Assembly (NCBI GenBank): GCA_949751835.1
Contig: CATKHK010000109.1
Coordinates: forward strand, 62,001-126,000
Length of the DNA: 64,000 nt
Direction: 5' to 3'
Origin: Blepharisma japonicum
Taxonomy: Eukaryota; Ciliophora; Heterotrichea; Heterotrichida; Blepharismidae
This document shows, one piece after another, positions 15,506 to 56,803 of the stretch. A model generated the notes under the pieces. The model worked only from the letters and a program-made list of their open reading frames with translations. It was not told where the DNA came from and searched no databases. The position numbers and the translations under genes are program-made. Every line of letters begins with the position of its first letter. The first letter of the stretch is position 1.

Positions 15506-15958
15506 ATGAAAACTTTGATAAAAAGAATTTTAAAAGAAATAAACGACGAAAAAAATTTGTCTAAGAAAGAAATCAGCTTCTGACAATGTGATGAAGATAC
15601 TTATATCAATTTTATAGGAGCTGTTTCTGGAGCAAAAGCTTCACCTTATGAAGGTGGGATATTTTATTTAGAAATTGTAATTCCTGAATATTATCCTTTT
15701 AGACCACCAAAGATAAAATTTATAACGAAAATTTATCATCCTTGAGTAAACTCTAGTGGCGCAATATGCTTAGATATTCTACAAGATCAATGATCTCCTG
15801 CTTATACAATTCGAAACGCTTTAATTGAAATTCAGAACTTGATGATACATTCTGACATAAGAGATCCATTAAATGTTGAAAGTTTCTGTCTTTATCGAGG
15901 AGATAGGGCCAAATATGAAAGCACAGTTAGAGAATGAACTAAGGCTTATGCAATGTAG
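15506..15958 (+). CDS. Ubiquitin-conjugating enzyme E2 (HPN motif altered to HPW)
   Basis: This 150-residue UBC domain has the standard order: an N-terminal helix, SPYEGGIFYL, the YPFRPPKIKF strand, the active-site segment GAICLDILQDQWSP with Cys88, and a C-terminal REWTKAYAM helix. At least four TGA codons are read as Trp; one is the invariant Trp of the QWSPA motif. The HPN motif that supports catalysis reads His78-Pro79-Trp80, with Trp from TGA, so the Asn is lost although the Cys is kept. It may be a UbcH5/Ubc4-like enzyme with altered chemistry. A related gene of the same length but without the Cys lies at 17853-18305, with one gene between them. Confidence 0.85.
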
Positions 15959-17852: not shown

Positions 17853-18305
17853 ATGGCAGGCTCATTATGTCGAATTAACAAAGAGGCCAGAACAATTGAT
17901 AAATCTACACTTTTATATAGCATGTGACCAATTGAGGAGCAAAATATGTATGATTTTATAGGAGTTATAATAGGTCCTCAAGAAACTTCTTATGAAGGTG
18001 GAATATTCTTTTTAAAAATTCAATTTTCAGCTAGCTATCCATTTCAACCTCCAATTATTAGATTTTTGACTCCAATATTTAACCCATGCGTAGATGCCAA
18101 TGGAAATATAACTCTAGAAATATTAACACATATGTGAACTCCTGCAATGACAATTGAAAAACTTTTGCTGACAATAATGGGCACATTGAATAGTTTTGAT
18201 ATAGAATATTCGTCTAACAAAAGTATTTTAGAAATATATAAAAATAATCCTACACAATATGAGATAATGGCTAGAGAGTGGACAAGGAAATACGCAATAG
18301 GTTAA
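17853..18305 (+). CDS. E2-fold protein without active-site Cys (UEV-like)
   Basis: This 150-residue UBC-fold protein is the same length as the E2 at 15506. It keeps SYEGGIFFLKI, YPFQPPIIRF, the TGA-encoded Trp in MWTPAMTIEK, and the C-terminal REWTRKYAI helix. The HPN motif reads Asn77-Pro78-Cys79. The active-site position in GNITLEIL is Thr87 instead of Cys, so it should not form a ubiquitin thioester in the normal way. By analogy with Uev1/Mms2 and Tsg101 it may be a non-catalytic partner or a ubiquitin binder. Cys79 is only a few residues away from the usual site, but nothing shows that it acts. Confidence 0.75.
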
Positions 18306-46291: not shown

Positions 46292-46768
46292 ATGCAAAGT
46301 GTTAGCGATGGGAGGATCCATGTGTATAAACCAGGCACTTTGGAGAGAAATGAAGACAGAAATTCAATTGTGCTGCAAGCTTTGGAGACTGGGGATGGAG
46401 AATTGCTGGATTGGTGCATTGAAAATATGCAGGCACCGATAGATGTGCCTGATAGCTTGATTGCTCATTTGATTTATTTTTTAGCTGGAAGATTTTGGGT
46501 GCATTCAGACCCAAAAGCTTTAGGGTGGATAAGAAGCACAATTGTGAATAATAAAGAAAAAATCAAAGGAAACCAAGAAATAAGGCTGGTATTAGACGAA
46601 GTTAATGGGAAATTGAAAGCAAAAGCTGAAGGAATAGAAGAAGTGGGAAAGCTGAAAAATAAGCTTGATAGAATTTTTACACAAAATAAGGCTGCTCAAG
46701 ATTTTGCTATTATTGAACAGCCGCAAATAATAATCAATGAAGAAAACGATATGGATGTGGAAGAGTAA
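46292..46768 (+). CDS. Stand-alone Utp12-domain protein (WDR43/Utp5 C-terminal-like)
   Basis: The 158-residue protein has a Utp12-type helical domain at about 25-95: SIVLQALETGDGELLDWCIE, then PDSLIAHLIYFLAGRFW and ALGWIRSTIV. In the small-subunit processome this domain lies at the C-terminus of WD40 proteins such as Utp4, Utp5/WDR43, Utp12 and Utp13. Here no WD40 part is present; the remainder is a Lys/Glu-rich helix and an acidic tail ending MDVEE. The gene may encode a split or minimal processome subunit. Its start is 14 nt from that of importin-5 on the other strand. Its 3' part was duplicated to 53028-53256. Confidence 0.6.
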   Translation: MQSVSDGRIHVYKPGTLERNEDRNSIVLQALETGDGELLDWCIENMQAPIDVPDSLIAHLIYFLAGRFWVHSDPKALGWIRSTIVNNKEKIKGNQEIRLVLDEVNGKLKAKAEGIEEVGKLKNKLDRIFTQNKAAQDFAIIEQPQIIINEENDMDVEE

Positions 46769-46834
46769 GTCTATTAATTTTACATAAAATTATAAAGATT
46801 AAATGGTTTTTATGGACATATTTATAGAAATATA

Positions 46835-48826
46835 ATGCAAGTCATTGATAGAATTCGTATTAAGTCGAGAAATGATTCACTCAATTCAGAGATTTCTGGT
46901 GAATTAGAGAATTTCCTCAGACAAAACAGCTTCTTAGCAAGCTTTTATCAGATGAAAAAGATCCCAAATAATCAAGATCTTAAGAAGAGATTTGTTGTTT
47001 CAGCACTTTATGAATATATATTCTTTTATAATCAAAATTGATTTCATGATTTTGGAAATCGCTTACAAGCAATCAAAATGGACACTTCTTATTTGGAATG
47101 GCTTATAGTCCAGCAAAATGAAAAAGGTATGGAATTTCTTGATGAAGAATTTAATACAGAAAATTTCAAATTTCATGCAATTGGGTTAGTTGATCATATT
47201 TGTGAGTTCAGTTATCCAGTGGAAGACTTTGATCATGTGCTCTTTAAAAAATTAACTCAATCTTTGCAATTTACAGCTATTTTGTTTGAAAAAGACTGAA
47301 AGGTTATATACAGAAGCCCATTAGACCAAATTTCATTAATTTTATATCTTTGAGATGGTAATTACTATATTTTTTATCCAAAAACAAATTTTGGTTGAAA
47401 CAATATATTTGATGATGTTCCGCGGCGAGTTCCCACTTTACGAGAAAACCAAATTAAGTTGGGCTGTCTTGATGTAGTGGATCTTCCAATTCATCAACTC
47501 GGAATAACTTCATGAGAAAAATTTACAAAACTTATAGAAGAATGCCCTAATTGCAGCTTAAAACCCACAAAGATTGATATTGAAATAATCAATGAAAAGA
47601 AAATAAATTGATTTATTAATAGATGTTTTTATTGCAGAGGGACTGAAGATTTGATCAGTGTCAAAAATATTGACTACTCTTTTTGCCAATCTTGCATTTA
47701 CAAGTATAAAAATTTTATTAATGAGCATATAAATAGCATTGCTAGCAAGGAAGGACCTAATGTAAAAAGATTATTTCTTAAAATCCAAAATTGTATTGAT
47801 AAAATTGCAGAAAATTACTTTAAATGTGGAATTTGCCGCTGTGATGATATCGACAAAAATGATAGATATCGTCACTGCTTTTCTTTTTCAGGAAATAGAA
47901 ATATCTGCAGACAATGTGTAAAGAACTTGATTTATCAAGTGGGAAATCTTAATGAATTCTCTTATAAGAACTGAAAAGATCTATTAGCTAATCCAGATGA
48001 TATTAAAGTTATCTTAAAAGATAAAGAGTTTTTAGAACTTTTTTGTATTAATTGCATGAAGGAATTAGCAGGAATAGAAAATAGTGGCATTTTAGGTCAT
48101 GAGAACTGCTTAAAAAAATATTGCCAAGAATGCTTTAATAAAATAGATATTGGAAATTGCAGCAATTGTGGAAATCCTCTTATCAATATTTTTTATATAA
48201 CTCCTTATGAGAGATGTAATATGTGCAATAATGTTTTTCCAAAATCAGCACTAAAAGATGGAAAATGCTATATTTGTGAAATTGATAATAGAAATTATAT
48301 GCAAATTGATGAAGAGTCTAAACCAAATGAGCCATCTAACAGTCTATATCTGAATTCGACTAAAAGATATGAAAGTAGCAGCGATAAATTTGATTTGCAA
48401 CTCGAAATATCCAAAATAGAAAGAAATTTTGACTTTCCATTAAACTGCAAGCCAGTTGATGATAATACAATTGAACTTTCTCCAAAATTTCCAGATAGTT
48501 ATGAGATATATGCAGGGGAATGCTTAAAATTTGCAATTTATTTTGCTGACAGGAATGTTAATGCTGTAAAAGTGACGCCAATAATTGGATCTTCAAACAT
48601 TTTCCATCCAAATTTTTCTAATGAAGGAAACTTATCTCAAACATATATTAAAGAAAAATTAAAAGGACTTGATTTTTTGAGTTTAATATCTCTCATATTT
48701 TCTGTTCTTTTTAATCCTCAAGAATCGTTTGTGGAAAATGCTACTGCATATAACAAATGAAAACAGCTCAATGATTGCTATTGGAAATTAGCAAGAAGAT
48801 ACCTTATGACTAGTGGTCTTAGTTAA
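46835..48826 (+). CDS. Otubain-like / multi-zinc / E2-fold fusion protein, copy 1 (intact)
   Basis: The 663-residue protein is read with TGA as Trp. Residues ~20-180 resemble the C-terminal half of otubains: DFDHVLFKKLTQSLQFTAIL, then LILYLWDGNYYIFYPK where active OTUB1 has LLYRPGHYDILY. No DGNC Cys motif is seen and the His is replaced. Residues ~235-485 hold at least five C-x2-C units, including a RING-like array (FCINCMKEL...HENC...YCQEC...NCSNC at ~403-445). Residues ~520-663 fit a UBC fold: PLNCKPVDDNTIELSPKFP, then HPN at 591-593 followed by GNLS with Ser601 in place of the active Cys. The combination is unknown to me. Its role is probably binding of ubiquitin or a like protein. Confidence 0.6.
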
Positions 48827-49632
48827 TATATTCAAAATAAAAATAATAAGAATAATTGTGACTTAGAATTAATTTATTTAAATATATATGATAATCTAAA
48901 TTTAATCTCTGCTTGAAAAAGCCCTAAAATATTTTTATCTTTACACAATCACACAGTGTTTTATTAATAGCTCTAAACAATATTACGTGTTCCACCTTAT
49001 CCTTCTTAATTATAGCAAGCAAAGTCCATTTGAGATACAAGATCATTGCATCCTATAAAACTTTTCTCATCTTCATTATTGTCGATAGTATAAAGAGATT
49101 AAATTTTATAATATAGATGCATTGTTAATTGGTTTAATGAATTTGGAATAGTATCAGATTCTAATACAATAAAAAAGTTTAGTTCTTCTAAATTTTCGTG
49201 TTTTTGGGTTATCACTGGCTCTCTTTAAACTAAAGAATTTTAGATTTTAGATCTTGAGAGGTAAATAGTTTCCTTATATAATTATTTTAAGTTGAGTTCA
49301 TATATTACACTTGATTTTCTTAAAAATTAATTTATATAGTGTCAAAGATTTGATTATTTTATCAGTTTAAAGCTTAAATCTGAGAATTCGAGCCTTAGTT
49401 TTTGTATTTATAGCAATATAAAACAGACTTTTTTAGTATTACATAATCAAGTCTAAACGATCGTAAATGAAATAAACACCACACAGGTAGCTATTTGATG
49501 CACATCTGTAGTGTTAGTCTATAGAAATTGCCTGAGCTCCACATGTGAACTATCTTTCACATGTGAAGCCCTTTTTGGAATTGCCTGACAATGGCCCATT
49601 CCACATCATTCTCAGGTAATTGCAATATAGGT
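48827..49632. other. 3' flank of copy 1 (inverted-repeat arm to 49119) and part of the spacer
   Basis: Positions 48827-49119 belong to the left arm of the inverted repeat and match the reverse complement of 50458-50706. From 49120 the sequence is unique AT-rich spacer without a gene. Around 49540-49570 the word CACATGTGAA occurs twice in inverted fashion, giving a short possible hairpin. Confidence 0.6.
49617..49632 (+). repeat. 16-bp direct repeat, left copy
   Basis: TAATTGCAATATAGGT occurs here and, identically, at 50144-50159. The two copies closely flank the MOB4 pseudogene fragment and resemble a target-site duplication. Confidence 0.8.
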
Positions 49633-50143
49633 GTGTATGTAAAAAGTCTATACAGCCTTCTTACGATACTCATAAGATATTTTATTGAAGTTGGTGGGAT
49701 GCTAACTCGGCTGTTAAAATTTTTATTAATTTGCATAAGAGAGGTAGCATAGTCTAGTGTATGGTTAATATAGTCTGTTGCTGTACATTCTTAGGGGTCT
49801 TGTGAGATGTGCAAAGGTAAAGCCAGTCATCGGTTACCTTCATTTTGAGGCATGCTGTTGGTCTACAGATTCCTTGGAGAGAGAGAGACTGCGAGAAGGT
49901 TAAGCTCAAGGATGAACTGCCTCATATGCTCGTATTGCCAAACTCCAATATCTACATCGGCTGGAGGCTCACAAATACGCTTCACATTATCTGGGCAGAT
50001 TCGGATTAGTTCTTGAATATATTCTTGGATTGCAAATAGACCAGGCATGTTTGGGTAATCTTCAAAATTCCAGACCAAAGGTCAGCTGGCCTGGTGCCAA
50101 GTCTATTTCGTCTGACTTTAAACATTATTGAATTTTATTTTTT
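49633..50143 (-). pseudogene. MOB4: MOB4/phocein pseudogene fragment between direct repeats
   Basis: On the minus strand a decayed MOB4 (phocein, a STRIPAK subunit) can be read in pieces. From the ATG at 50125 it gives MFKVRRNRLGTRPAD, then in a second frame EPPADVDIGVWQYEHMRQFI (human: [20 protein letters not shown]), then in further frames CTSHKTPKN and DYINHTLD. At least three frame changes are present and similarity stops near 49640, so the C-terminal third is missing. The fragment is bounded by exact 16-bp direct repeats. It is a dead gene piece, and no poly(A) tract that would mark a retrocopy is seen. Assignment to MOB4 rather than MOB1 is strong from the WQYEHMRQF wording. Confidence 0.85.
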
Positions 50144-50159
50144 TAATTGCAATATAGGT
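50144..50159 (+). repeat. 16-bp direct repeat, right copy
   Basis: Identical to 49617-49632 (TAATTGCAATATAGGT). The starts of the copies are 527 bp apart. Confidence 0.8.
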
Positions 50160-50706
50160 AAGTGTCCGCTATATTAATGGAAAATTGCTAATATATAGTG
50201 GCTAAAAATGTGTGCATAATCTTAGACAATATGCCATATATCTTGTGCCTCTCTAAATTTGAAAATAAATATTGTCCTGACTAGCAGTAGAAGTTGTGCA
50301 CAATAAATATCTATCTCAAGCAGAATCTAATTTCTCTGCAGTTTTTTCAATCCTAGAGCATACTGATACAGTTAACTTTCTAAATTAAAAATTAGACTCA
50401 AATTCGATCATCCTATTCGAATATTTTTTCTTTTAACGCATTATCATTATATTTTTACATCTATACTATAAAATTTAATCTCTTTACACCATCGACAATG
50501 ATAAAGATGAGAAAAGTTTTATAGCATGCAAAGATCTTGTATCCCAAATGAATTCTGCTTTTAGTTTTATTAATAAAACACTGTGGATTGTGTAAAGATA
50601 AAAACATTTTGGGCTTTTTCAAGCAGAGATTAAATTTAGATTATATATATATTAAATAAATTAATTCTAAGTCACAATTATTCTTATTAATTTTATTTTG
50701 AATATA
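50160..50706. other. right part of spacer and 3' flank of copy 2
   Basis: Positions 50160-50457 are AT-rich unique sequence with no gene seen. Positions 50458-50706 are the right arm flank of the inverted repeat and lie downstream of copy 2. Confidence 0.5.
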
Positions 50707-52704
50707 TTAATTAAGACCACTTGTCATAAGGTATCTTCTTGCTAATCTCAAATAGCAATCATTGGAGTTTTTTCATTCTTTATATGCAGTAACATTTTCC
50801 ATAAATGATTCTTGAGGATTAAGAAGAACAGAAAATATGAGAGATATTAAACTCAAAAAATCAAGTCCTTTTAATTTTTCCTTAATAAATGCTTGAGATA
50901 AGTTTCCTTCATCAGAAAAATTTGGATGGAAAATGTTTGAAGATCCAATGATTGGTGCCGCTTTTACGGCATTAACATCTCTGCCAACAAAACAAATTGT
51001 AAATTTTAAGCATTCCCCTGCATATATCTCATGACTATGTGGAAATTTTGGAGAAAGTTCAATTGTATTATCATCAACTTGCTTGCAGTTTAATGGGAAG
51101 TCAAATTGTCTTTCTATTTCTGATATTTTTAGTTGCAAATTAAATTTATCGCTGCTACTTTCGTATCTTTGAATTGAATTCGGATATAGACTCTTAGGTG
51201 GCTCATTTGATATAGGTTCTTCATCAACTTGCATATATATTTTGGTATCAGCTTCGCAAATATAGCATGTTCCATCATTTAGAGCTGATTTTGGGTAGAC
51301 GACACTGCATACATTACATTTCTCATAAAGAGTATTATAATAAATATTGATAAGAGGATTTCCACAATTGCTGCAATTTCCAGCATCTATTTTATTTAAG
51401 CATTCTTGGCAATATTTTTTTAAGCAGTTCTCATGACCTAAAATGCCGCTATTTCCTTTGTCTGCTAGTTCCTTCATGCAATTTACACAAAAAAGTTCTA
51501 AAAACTCTTTATCTTTTAAGATAACTTTAATATCATCTGAATCAGCTAATAGATCTTTTCAGTTCTTATAAGAGAATTCATTAAGATTTTCCACTTGATA
51601 AATCAAGTTCTTTACACATTGTCTGCATATATTTCTATTGCCTGAAAAAGAAAAGCAGCGACGATCTTTATCATTTTTGTAGAGATCATCACAGCCGCAA
51701 TTTCCACATTTAAAGTAATTTTCTTCAATTTTTTTAAAACACTTTTCAATTATAAGAAATAATGTTTTTGCATTAAATCCTTCCTTGCTAGCAATGCTTT
51801 TTATATGCTCATAAATATAATTTTTATACTTATAAATGCAAGAGCGGCAAAAAGAGTAGTCAATATTTTTGACACTGATCAAATCTTCAGTCCCTCTGCA
51901 ATAAAAACATCTATTAATAAATCAATTTATTTTCTTTTCATTGATTATTTTAATATCAATCTTTGTGGGTTTTAAGTTACAATTAGGACATTCTTCTATA
52001 AGTTTTGTAAATTTTTCTCATGAAGTTATTCCTATTTCATGAATTGGAAGATCCACTAAACAAAGACAGCCCAACATAATTTTGTCTTCTTGTAAAATAG
52101 ATATTTGCCCTGGAATATAGTTGATTATAGAATTCCAATCAAAGCTCTTTTTTGGGTAGAAAATAAAATATTCATCACTTTGAATGTATATTATCAAAAA
52201 TATTCAACTTCCTGGACCTTTATATATAACTTTTGAGCCTTTTTTAATCAAAATAGCTGTAAAATTAAGACATCCAGTTAATCTGCTAAACAATTGATGA
52301 TCGAAATCTGTTTTTTCTGGACTAGTGAATTCACAAACCTGATTGACTAATCAAATTGAGTGTTCTCTGAAGGCATCTGTATTAAATACTTTATCAAGCA
52401 TTTGCATCTTTTCTTCAAATTGGCGATTTATAAGCCATGTGAAATAAGAAGTGTCAGCATTGATTGCTTGTAGATGTGCCGAAAATTTATGAAACCAATT
52501 TGGCTGATAAAAGAAAGTGTATTCAAAAATTGCTGAAATAATGAACTGCTTTTTAAGGTCTTGATTATTTGGGATTTCTTTAATCTGGTAAAATCAAGAG
52601 TTATAATTATTTTGATATATAAAAGCTGCTACATCTTTTGAAATGCCTGGAATGAGAGATCGATCAGAATTCTGAATGCGAACTCTATTAATTGTGGTAT
52701 TCAT
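50707..52704 (-). CDS. Otubain-like / multi-zinc / E2-fold fusion protein, copy 2 (intact)
   Basis: This copy encodes 665 residues with TGA as Trp and has the same architecture as the gene at 46835. Its first ~180 residues (MNTTINRVRIQNSDRS..., FDHQLFSRLTGCLNFTAILI, YIQSDEYFIFYPK) are clearly diverged from copy 1. From LPIHEIGITSWEKFTKLIEE on, the two are nearly the same, including the Cys-rich middle and the E2-fold end with FHPNFSDEGNLSQ. The active-site Cys position is again Ser. Where copy 1 has TGA in NQN-W-FHDF, this copy has TGG in QPN-W-FHKF. Both copies being open over 2 kb argues that they are maintained. Confidence 0.6.
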
Positions 52705-52921: not shown

Positions 52922-53027
52922 CAGAACCTAAATAAAACATCATATCAATACTTCTTAATTAATATATTAAAAATTTCATTACCCGAAAGCTTTCAAAGAT
53001 AAATCTGAATAAAACTTGACATCGACA
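52922..53027 (-). pseudogene. Duplicated 3' end of the PP2A-A gene
   Basis: The sequence repeats about 55018-55115: the last ~49 coding bases of the PP2A scaffold gene (including its stop, here at about 52979) and its 3' flank, with a short extra stretch near 52930. Identity is near complete from 52951 on. It ends abruptly at 53027, where a piece of another gene begins. Confidence 0.85.
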
Positions 53028-53256
53028 ACAATTGTGAATAATAAAGAAAAAATCAAAGGAAGCCAAAAATAAAGCTGGTGTTAAACGGAGTTAATGGTAA
53101 ATTGAAAGCAAAAGCTGAAGGAATAAAAGAAGTGGGAAAGCTGAAAATTAAGCTTGATAGAATTTTTACACAAAATAAGGCTACTCAAGATTTTGCTATT
53201 ATTGAACAGCTGCAAATAATAATCAATGAAGAAAACGATATGGATGTGGAAGAGTA
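53028..53256 (+). pseudogene. Duplicated 3' part of the Utp12-domain gene
   Basis: From ACAATTGTGAATAATAAAG on, this repeats 46538-46768 with a few per cent differences, including the acidic end and the stop. It lacks the first half of the gene and has frame-disturbing small changes, so it is a non-functional 5'-truncated copy. It continues collinearly into copy 3 with the same spacing (6,490 bp) as the original does into copy 1. Confidence 0.88.
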
Positions 53257-53324
53257 AGTCTATCAATTTACATAAAATTATAAAGATTAAAAATGGTTTT
53301 TATGGACATATTTATAGAAATATA

Positions 53325-54737
53325 ATGCAAGTCATTGGCAGAATTCGTATTAAGCCGAGAAATGACTCACTCAATTCAGAGATTTCTGGTGAATTGGAGA
53401 ATTTTCTCAGCCAAAACAACTACTTAACAAGCTTTTATCAGATGAAAAAGATCCCAAATAATCAAGATCGTAAGAAGCAATTCATTGTTTCAGCACTTTA
53501 TGAATATATATTCTTTTATAACCAAAATTGGTTTCAGTATTTTGGATATTGCATGCAAACAATCAATATTGACACTTTTTATTTCCAAGGACTTATAGCC
53601 GAGCAAAATGAAAAAGGTATGGAATATCTTGATGAAGTATTTAATACAGAAGATTTCAAATTTCATGCAATTGGGTTAGTTGATAATATTTGTGAGTTCA
53701 GTCGTTCAGTAGAAGACTTTGATCATGTGCTCTTTAAAAAATTTACTCAATCTTTGCAATTTACAGCTATTTTGATTCAAAAAGACTCAAAGGTTATATA
53801 CAGAAGCCCATTAGACCAAATTTTCTTAATTTTATATCTTTGAAATGATAATTACTATATTTTTTATCCAAAAACAAATTTTAATTGGAGCGATATATTG
53901 AATTATGTTCCGCAGCAAGTTTTTCCTTTGCAAGGAGACAAAATTATGTTGGGCTGTCTTTGTTTAGTGGATCTTCCAATTCATCAACTAGGAATGACTT
54001 TATGAGAACAAATTACAAACCTTATAGAAAAATGCCCTAATTGTAGCTTAAAACCCACAAAGATTGATATTAAAATAATCGAGGAAAAGAAACGGGAATG
54101 CTTTATTAATAAATGTTTCTATTGCAGAGGGACTAAAGATTTGATCAGTGTCAAAAATATTGACTATTCTTTTTGCCAATCTTGCACTTACCAGTATAAA
54201 AATTTTATTTATGAGCATATAAACATCATTGCTAGCAAGGAAGGATTTAATGTAAAAAGAATAAAAAAATTATCTCTTAGAATTGAAAATTGTATTGCAG
54301 AAAATTACTTTAAATGTGAAAATTGCGACCGTGATGATATTGACAAAAATGATAGATATTGTGGCTGCTTTTCTTTTTCAGAAAATAGAAATATCTCAGA
54401 AAATGTGTAAAGAACTTGATTTATCAAGTGGGAAATCTATCTGAATTCCCTTATAAACTATTAATTAATCCAGATGATATTAAAGTTATCTTAAAAGATA
54501 AGAGTTTTTTAGAACTTTTTTGTGTAAATTGCATAAAGAAATGAGCAGAAAAAGGAAATAGCGGCATTTTAGGTAATGAGCTGTGCAAAAAAAAATATTG
54601 CCAAGAATGCTTAAATAAAAATAGATATTGAAAAATGCATCAATTGTGGAAATCCTCTTATCAATGCTTTTTATAATACTTCTTATGAGAGATGTAATAT
54701 ATGCAGTGTCTTCTACCCAAAATTAGCTATAAATGAT
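53325..54737 (+). pseudogene. Otubain-like / zinc / E2-fold gene, copy 3 (truncated, decayed)
   Basis: This copy is close to copy 1 from the ATG at 53325 onward (MQVIGRIRIKPRNDSLNSEI) and reads with TGA as Trp for about 360 codons. Near 54391 a single base present in copy 1 is missing, so the frame ends at TAA 54408-54410 in the second zinc unit. Similarity continues in pieces to about 54737 and then stops before the E2-fold part. Here TGG stands in NQN-W-FQYF where copy 1 has TGA. The N-terminal part might still yield a short protein of about 361 residues, but the copy looks like a decaying duplicate. Confidence 0.8.
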
Positions 54738-54988: not shown

Positions 54989-55066
54989 AAAATTAAAACT
55001 CTAAAAATATTTTTGTAATTTAGAACCTATATCAATACTTCTTAAATTAATATATTAAAAATTTCA

Positions 55067-56803
55067 TTACCCGAAAGCTTTCAAAGATAAATCTGAATAA
55101 AACTTGACATCGACATCATCATCTCTGCTCATTGTCTTCAAAATAACTTTTATCTGATCTTTTGTCGATGCATCAGTAATTAGAGGGAAAACTTCTTTGA
55201 TAAGCCTCGCAATGTTTAGCCTTATATTAGGAACTGCATCTGATGAGAGCGAAACTATCATTGGGACTACAATGGCTAATAGTTTCTCTTCCGACATTTT
55301 CGATAAAAACGCTTTTACCATGAAAATCATTGTCATTCGTCTTAGATAGCTTTCGCTTGCTTGGAATTCAGCTATTTCTTCGCTGATTTTGGCTTCTGCC
55401 CAAGTAGAGCCATATAGCTCAGAAAGTTCTTTGTAGCCTTTTATAATAGATTCTCTGACAGAGAACACAGAGTCGTTCAGCAGTTTTTTCATGATTGAGT
55501 CTAAATGCATGCTGAAAAATTCTAGGCCAAGTTGTCTGCCAAGTATAGGAATAGTATCAGCTGCCCTTATTCTTATCCTTCACTGTTTATCTTCACTTAG
55601 TTCTTGGAGAGCTGGTATAATATGTTTTCCAATAATTTCAAACCCAACTACAGATCCTAAGCTTTCTAAGTCAGAAAACAAACACATACGTAAATCTGGA
55701 GAAGGATCCTTAGACAAGCCATTCAGGATTTTTACAATATGCATCTCAGTGTTCGCTTTGCCTATTATTGGAGAAACTTTATTTATATTAGATGCCAAGG
55801 CAATTTTTACTGAGTCTACATCTGTTGTTAAAGGTAACAAAATTTGTAAAATAATTATCATTTGGTCAATTGGCAAAAGATTCCCAAAATCAGCCAATCT
55901 TGTACAAGCCATTGTTCTTACTTCTGCTTCTGGATCCTGCAAAAATTTAATGTAATAAGGACACAGTAAATTAGTCCTATGCTCATTCGACAAGCACTCT
56001 CCAAGCTCAGCTATTTTATCACATAGCATATATCTAATTTTTCAGCTTTTATCCTCTAAAATTACTCTTAGCATCGGAATTATGCTAGTATTTACAATAT
56101 TTTCAGGGTAAAATTTACAAAATTCTATAAGATTTTCAACAGTCAACAACCTAACTGTATCTTCTTTATCATTCGTTATTAGCCTCAAACACTCAATCAG
56201 CACATTTTCATGTGAAATACACACACTCGGCAAAAACTTCAAATTTTCAGCAGCCGACTTTCTAACTTGTGGCTGGTTATTTTCCAAAATTCCTTTAAAA
56301 ATCTCAAGAACTGCCGTTTTTCCTTCATTTGACATACTTCCTATACATACCGAAATAACCATAGCAGCTCCACTTTTGGACGTAAAATAGTCTCCATCAT
56401 TCATTCTTTTAATCATATCAAGCAGTGCTGGCTCTAATAAAGGCATATCCAGCTGATTAAAAATTGTTTTAAAACTTTGAACAGCTGATGCACGTACTGA
56501 GGAGTCTTCTACTTGGCAAAGCAATTCTAAAGGGTCAAATAGGACATGCGCGAAATATTTTCCACCTACACAATCCATCATAGTAGGTAAAATCTCTGAG
56601 AGTGACAACAAAACTTGTTCTTCATCATCTATTAGTTCAGATAAATAAGGAATCAGCTCAGTTCTAGTTCTTTCATAGCCTAAAGCAGTTGCTATTGTGC
56701 GGAGATTTTTGATGGAGTTTATCCTTCGTGAAATTTCGTCACTTCTGAGTTCGTCTATGAGGACTGCGATGGGATATAAAGAACTTTCTTCAGAATTAGA
56801 CAT
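55067..56803 (-). CDS. PPP2R1A: PP2A scaffold subunit A (PR65)
   Basis: With TGA as Trp the gene encodes 578 residues, close to the 589 of human PR65. It consists of about fifteen HEAT repeats from the N-terminal [20 protein letters not shown] (human: [20 protein letters not shown]) to the C-terminal RDDDVDVKFYSDLSLKAFG. This horseshoe scaffold holds the catalytic C subunit and a variable B subunit of protein phosphatase 2A. Trp of repeat inner helices (DKSWKIRYMLCDKI) is encoded by TGA. The last coding bases and 3' flank were duplicated to 52922-53027. Confidence 0.93.

Follow-up and report, generated by a model that had tools for sequence, protein, structure and literature searches.

Can a protein that appears to be built from ubiquitin-system folds, with the aligned catalytic residues of both its end domains gone, still have a function? 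A locus of the ciliate Blepharisma japonicum raises this question. It lies in a 64-kb window, the whole stretch of DNA analysed here, which is part of contig CATKHK010000109.1 (C109). The preliminary description of this DNA had seen two intact gene copies of about 665 residues, and the frames bear this out: copy 1 (46835-48826, forward strand) is a single-frame gene of 663 amino acids with eight TGA codons read as tryptophan, and copy 2 (50707-52704, reverse strand), inverted relative to copy 1, is a single-frame gene of 665 amino acids with seven. In both chains an otubain-like part, a Cys-rich array and a part resembling ubiquitin-conjugating enzymes (E2s) follow one another in this order, the columns that align best with the otubain catalytic sites carry neither Cys nor His, and the Cys array is retained. 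We give a probability of about one half to the reading that the protein joins an otubain fold and an E2 fold, both catalytically dead, through a multi-CxxC zinc array in one chain, and would serve as an inhibitor, adaptor or decoy of ubiquitin transfer without catalysis of its own. The otubain and E2 folds themselves are supported rather than proven; expression, binding of ubiquitin and E2s, and function are inferred for the window proteins.

The otubain identity of the N-terminal part comes from structure matches and, less firmly, from a later profile comparison. Residues 1-232 were modelled with AlphaFold2, template-free, from an alignment of three copies (the third, a pseudogene, is described below), and the model was compared with 350,542 PDB chains using Foldseek. 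There were 105 matches, and ranks 1-14 were all otubains (E-values of 4.1e-4 to 0.12), covering OTUB1, OTUB2, rice OTUB and C. elegans OTUB1. Twelve of these rows are named as otubains, and the remaining two, 3von rows labelled 'ubiquitin protease', we take to be OTUB1. At ranks 15-18 came further deubiquitinases, of which three carry the name OTU. A model of the whole chain, with a very low confidence (predicted local distance difference test, pLDDT, of 35), also matched otubains best, with ranks 1-4 at E 0.012-0.042. Judged from the helices and strands of model ma1775403a58b and from Foldseek, the fold would span residues 22-194 of copy 1 (46898-47416, forward strand), and alignment to copy 1 places the corresponding part of copy 2 at about residues 22-196 (52117-52641, reverse strand). 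Structure prediction thus agreed with the otubain-like fold proposed earlier, and profile support was weaker. In the later local hhalign comparison, in which a relative of this module on contig C29 was added, the score against eight otubain rows of this genome was 23.6, and the best of 100 column-shuffled nulls reached 22.4. An early hhalign run without the C29 relative gave E 0.04, and E 0.75 against a smaller family profile. The otubain profiles held seven of the nine otubain rows (L013 and L021 excluded), plus the C97 protein described below in the later hhalign; the early hhalign excluded L021 only, and the weak, short C65 matches L022 and L023 were excluded.

Several results weigh against this identity. 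Model confidence is modest (pLDDT 57 and predicted template modelling score, pTM, 0.60, from three sequences), pLDDT is below 50 in 90 of the 232 residues, including 7-40 and 192-232, and TM-scores to otubains are low at 0.30-0.45. Neither copy 1 nor copy 2, nor their parts, matched Pfam C65 (PF10275) at E-values up to 10, and a hidden Markov model (HMM) built from seven of the genome's otubain rows scored copy 1 at -0.9 bits with HMMER. Pairwise shuffles of the N-terminal part against otubains yielded z of at most 2.2 where one unrelated control reached 3.7, the observed global hhalign score was reached by 2 of 100 nulls, and the HH-suite probability was 2.9%. Neither NCBIfam nor phmmer against the PDB gave a usable otubain identification for the N-terminal part, and its profile had no PDB match up to E 10. 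The local and global hhalign alignments also disagree in register, and because of this we hold the otubain fold with slightly less confidence than we otherwise would. We still regard a catalytically dead otubain fold as the probable identity of this part, chiefly from its predicted structure.

The residues that would make such a fold active are absent from the best-aligned columns. Residues 45-49 of copy 1 (NNQDL; 46967-46981, forward strand) lie opposite the otubain GDGNC in local hhalign, with Leu49 in the catalytic Cys column of the later local alignment; the global alignment places this stretch elsewhere. Residues 175-178 (GNYY; 47357-47368, forward strand) lie opposite GHYD in the early local and the later global alignments, and the later local alignment differs. 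At the first site, copies 1 and 2 share NNQDL and copy 3 has NNQDR; all three copies retain the following Glu-Tyr, and copy 1 alone retains the Arg. At the second site copies 1, 2 and 3 read GNYY, DEYF and DNYY, with Asn, Glu and Asn in the His column. Both sites never fall into place in one and the same alignment, the later local one being out of register at the second and the later global one at the first. Since no Cys occurs near the GDGNC-like site in any of the three copies, in whatever register, the loss of the Cys is independent of the register. The earlier statement that this part has no DGNC Cys and no GHY His is supported, with Leu49 and Asn/Glu/Asn at the best-aligned columns.

The C-terminal part is likely an E2-like domain. 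Taken alone, it matched Pfam UQ_con at E 3.4e-4 in copy 1 (residues 521-655; 48395-48799, forward strand; profile positions 3-138 of 140) and at E 3.8e-4 in copy 2 (residues about 524-657; 50734-51135, reverse strand; profile positions 60-138), and in the whole proteins at E 0.006 and 0.0042, respectively. Searched with an HMM built from seven of the genome's own E2s, the E-values were 2.8e-5 for copy 1 and 5e-4 for copy 2 (aligned over 561-657, envelope 523-657), compared to 0.46 for the best of 300 shuffles, and 16 of the 17 weak PDB sequence matches were E2s. The HPN motif is kept (residues 591-593 in copy 1), and eight residues past its Asn, at the position of the E2 Cys, copy 1 has Ser601 (48635-48637, forward strand) and copy 2 has Ser603 (50896-50898, reverse strand), as the preliminary description had read it. 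Weighing against an E2 are the bit scores of the part alone, which at 20.7 and 20.5 fall below the Pfam cut-off of 27, and the weakness of the best PDB sequence match (E 0.025). In its alignment this match, 1i7k, has a Ser of its own in the active-site column. Modelling produced no confident E2, and none was among the best 50 of 156 structure matches of the whole-chain model. A proline-rich loop before HPN and a Trp after the active site mark active E2s, and neither is retained in the HMM alignment.

The serine had been taken, from its presence in both copies, as a sign of a scaffold. Such a role is plausible, but the argument from two copies is weak. Synonymous divergence (dS) between copies 1 and 2 is 0.79 over the first ~220 aligned residues and ~0.14 over the rest, a pattern that a later homogenisation of the 3' two-thirds, perhaps through gene conversion, would produce, and because of this low 3' dS the retention of zinc and E2 residues in both copies amounts to nearly one observation. 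The change is also found elsewhere. The idea that it is unique to the fusion was rejected, as the closest E2 elsewhere in the genome to the window E2-like part (C32:376618, E 0.00125) reads Ser at the Cys column as well. This gene stands in a tandem E2 cluster (C32:374771-376824, L074) that includes a canonical E2, the Ser member and another that lacks the Cys there and has a one-residue insertion.

A serine in this column need not be dead. Charging of Ser601 by E1 could be slow and leave ubiquitin in a stable oxyester, and the protein would then be a natural E2~ubiquitin trap held by its own otubain-like domain. The exact placement of Ser in the Cys column after a kept HPN would suit such a trap, engineered Cys-to-Ser E2s are described as forming stable ubiquitin oxyesters (PMC11727022), and OTUB1 is described as binding E2~ubiquitin (PMC6254341). 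However, with the proline-rich loop and the Trp not kept, charging by E1 may fail, and we consider the trap unlikely.

The middle of the protein is a Cys-rich array, at residues 237-481 of copy 1 (47543-48277, forward strand) and residues 239-483 of copy 2 (51256-51990, reverse strand). The copy 1 array contains 24 Cys, most of them in ten CxxC pairs and the others standing singly, and all 24 are conserved in copy 2. When the 75 changes observed in the array were placed neutrally, 5.5 Cys were lost on average and only 2 of 2000 runs lost none, the observed outcome. This pattern suggests that the putative zinc ligands are under constraint. Two of the three array His of copy 1 are kept in copy 2. 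Given this partial retention and the absence of any Pfam RING or IBR match up to E 10, in either whole copy or in the copy 1 middle alone, a C3HC4 reading is unestablished. The preliminary description had the chain combine all three enzyme classes of ubiquitin chemistry, which was overstated: no RING or E3 class is detectable in the middle, either by Pfam up to E 10 or by a multi-RING HMM.

Otubain-like domains followed by Cys-rich arrays do occur elsewhere in this genome. A protein of 1016 amino acids on contig C90 (P0003; C90:75068-78115, L024 2069-5116) has an otubain domain with GDGNC and GHYD, several RING-like motifs and an RBR, with Pfam matches to C65 (1.6e-28) and IBR_1 (1e-7) and the RBR over cut-offs; judged by sequence, the one chain would be both deubiquitinase and ligase. 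A second copy adjoins the first, 88% identical and with one in-frame stop. On contig C97, the gene at C97:34041 (L031 1501-4380, reverse strand) encodes a degenerate otubain with DINS for DGNC (RLDINSFYR), followed by the same RING/RBR order. The otubain-like part has an HMM E-value of 6.6e-5 against 0.14 for the best shuffle; the RING/RBR part is below Pfam cut-offs, its assignment resting on 31% identity to the C90 protein. This gene is possibly an intermediate between enzyme and pseudoenzyme. At C97:25764 a RING/RBR part stands behind a different N-terminus. Frames were read for 6 of 14 genome regions; the other eight were L062, L064 and L066-L071, and L027 was likewise left out.

These proteins bear on the idea that the window array is an active multi-RING-type E3, with end domains that merely hold ubiquitin and an E2. 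In pairwise comparison it comes closest to the multi-RING arrays of two loci, C97 and C37 (z 3.2-6.5; against C90 z is 2.2-2.9), and in the C90 and C97 proteins such arrays stand between the otubain-like part and the RBR. Yet 13 controls, the Cys-rich frames of 12 genome loci and L021 (of 14 control loci, L049 gave none), had z of 0.4-4.7. With Cys positions held fixed, z fell to 1.2-3.0 for C97 and C37 and to -0.2 to 0.5 for C90, when controls reached up to 1.8. The multi-RING HMM scored the window proteins no better than shuffles, and the missing Pfam RING/IBR match and the conservation of only two array His also speak against a ligase. We find an active E3 very improbable; common descent of the window array with the multi-RING arrays of C90, C97 and C37 is possible from these comparisons.

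The main rival to a non-catalytic role is that the fusion has lost its function and is in decay, with the two open copies being young duplicates that have not yet broken. One copy at the locus is already broken, and aligned catalytic residues are lost in both end domains. Substitutions are spread almost flatly over the three codon positions (75/58/82, 21/29/25 and 18/13/16 in the three parts), and none of the parts has a significant excess of synonymous changes, the observed number being reached in 61, 625 and 258 of 1000 neutral runs; both results weigh against strong constraint. dN/dS by the Nei-Gojobori method (NG86) is 0.56 overall and 0.45, 0.62 and 0.71 by part, and the 0.62-0.71 of the 3' parts would also fit decay. 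In contrast, when the 337 substitutions between the copies were placed neutrally, none of 2000 simulated genes was stop-free (mean 13.6 stops), all 24 array Cys survive, and the two intact proteins, 71% identical, align with just two gaps of one residue each. For the 122 changes after residue 232, 7 of 2000 neutral runs were stop-free; for the E2 part alone 280 of 2000 were, and the absence of stops is uninformative there. The frame and the zinc ligands look constrained and the other residues weakly so, as might be expected if the gene evolves fast or is partly relaxed rather than highly conserved. We regard decay as the most serious alternative and a doubtful one.

The gene family is small and arose by local duplication in a ciliate. 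Long frames in the window stay open when UGA is read as Trp, and the composition is AT-rich, in keeping with Blepharisma stoltei, for which a genome of 41 Mbp with 66% AT and UGA as Trp is described (PMC9942806). Searching the genome (45.2 Mb, 224 contigs) with the whole protein gave 4 matches among 7 candidates, all within this locus. Copy 3 (53325-54737, forward strand) is a truncated, frameshifted pseudogene with the otubain-like part, part of the zinc array and no E2. It was duplicated along with the tail of a neighbouring gene (46292-46768), contained in the co-duplicated stretch at 53028-53324 (forward strand), and blastn aligns 46538-48259 to 53028-54737 at 88%. A mobile-element origin was considered and dropped, as the evidence shows local segmental duplication only. 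A 74-nt direct repeat, 99% identical (52957-53030 and 55045-55118), flanks copy 3 and its surroundings and is possibly a footprint of the segmental duplication. No relatives were found in viral or prokaryotic contig collections, which says little on other ciliates.

A search with the N-terminal module only found one additional locus, the C29 relative (31% identity, E 3.5e-5). This is a frame of 458 amino acids (C29:199337-200710, L076 1038-2411) with a short Cys cluster and, by eye, a hydrophobic, membrane-like stretch; no E2 was seen in the frame, and Pfam gave no match up to E 1.

More than one ubiquitin-system protein of this genome is a fusion or has lost catalytic residues. At least 127 UQ_con matches (138 candidates scored) and at least 11 C65 matches (14 candidates) were found, and no other locus has an otubain beside an E2 when C65 and UQ_con places are compared by eye, although few E2 matches were read for fused domains and others may exist. 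Two of the UQ_con matches over the cut-off are E2 genes elsewhere in the window, at 15524-15937 and 17871-18281. At C68:102642 (L075 3-2129), one frame joins VWA, an E2 that retains its Cys, and a U-box; all three domains exceed the cut-off. An apparent RBR-E2 fusion on contig C24 was rejected, as stops separate the E2-like frame from the RBR frame. On contig C99 (L059 2637-4733, reverse strand), a 699-amino-acid frame reads as a pepsin-like protease (by eye), a hydrophobic segment and an RBR that matches P0003.

How could a chain of dead folds work? OTUB1 is described as binding charged E2s and blocking transfer without catalytic activity of its own, and as being bound and stimulated by uncharged E2s (PMC6254341; PMC10919355). 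By analogy, the dead otubain of the window protein may retain an OTUB1-like surface for ubiquitin, E2 or both, the zinc array may be a rigid linker or a partner-binding platform, and the dead E2 could fill the otubain's E2 site in cis or compete with real E2s for E1 and E3 surfaces. With both dead folds tethered in one chain, the OTUB1-E2 contact would then be made in cis. A bolder form, which we think improbable, is a natural single-chain OTUB1-E2~ubiquitin inhibitory complex, in which the dead otubain is joined to an E2 whose Ser carries or mimics a locked ubiquitin, giving a self-contained brake or decoy. A gene that joins the two folds and lacks both catalytic residues would be evolution's test that the non-catalytic OTUB1-E2 contact is useful alone. 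The C90 protein with intact otubain motifs and its Cys-to-Ser relative on C97 offer an enzyme-to-pseudoenzyme series in one organism.

How does the fusion compare with known systems? As far as was searched, the earlier statement that no family has this order stands: comparing places by eye, C65 and E2 matches are nowhere neighbours in the genome, C90 joins an otubain to RING/RBR instead, and no protein with otubain, zinc array and E2 was among the literature matches listed, by titles and abstract openings. UBE2O and BIRC6 are fusions of E2 and E3. To the otubain family (peptidase C65, OTUB1/OTUB2), the likeness is in the predicted fold of the N-terminal part, with its 14 best PDB matches, and OTUB1 itself has a non-catalytic E2-binding activity; the window protein differs in lacking Cys and His at the best-aligned catalytic columns, in having no Pfam C65 match and in carrying a zinc array and E2-like domain on the same chain. 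To E2s, including the pseudo-E2s (UEV), which lack the active Cys and work alongside a true E2, the likeness is a weak UQ_con match, over the full profile in copy 1, and the kept HPN, whereas Ser for Cys, the lost proline-rich loop and Trp, a score below the Pfam cut-off and the larger chain set the window part apart. The C90 and C97 proteins share an otubain fold first and Cys-rich arrays next, and C97 is also without the catalytic Cys, but they end in an RBR rather than an E2, and homology of their arrays to that of the window is suggested, unproven. The VWA-E2-U-box protein of C68 likewise has an E2 fold in one chain with other ubiquitin-system domains, but it keeps the E2 Cys and has no otubain part. 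The window protein would belong with the pseudoenzyme fusions of ubiquitin-system folds.

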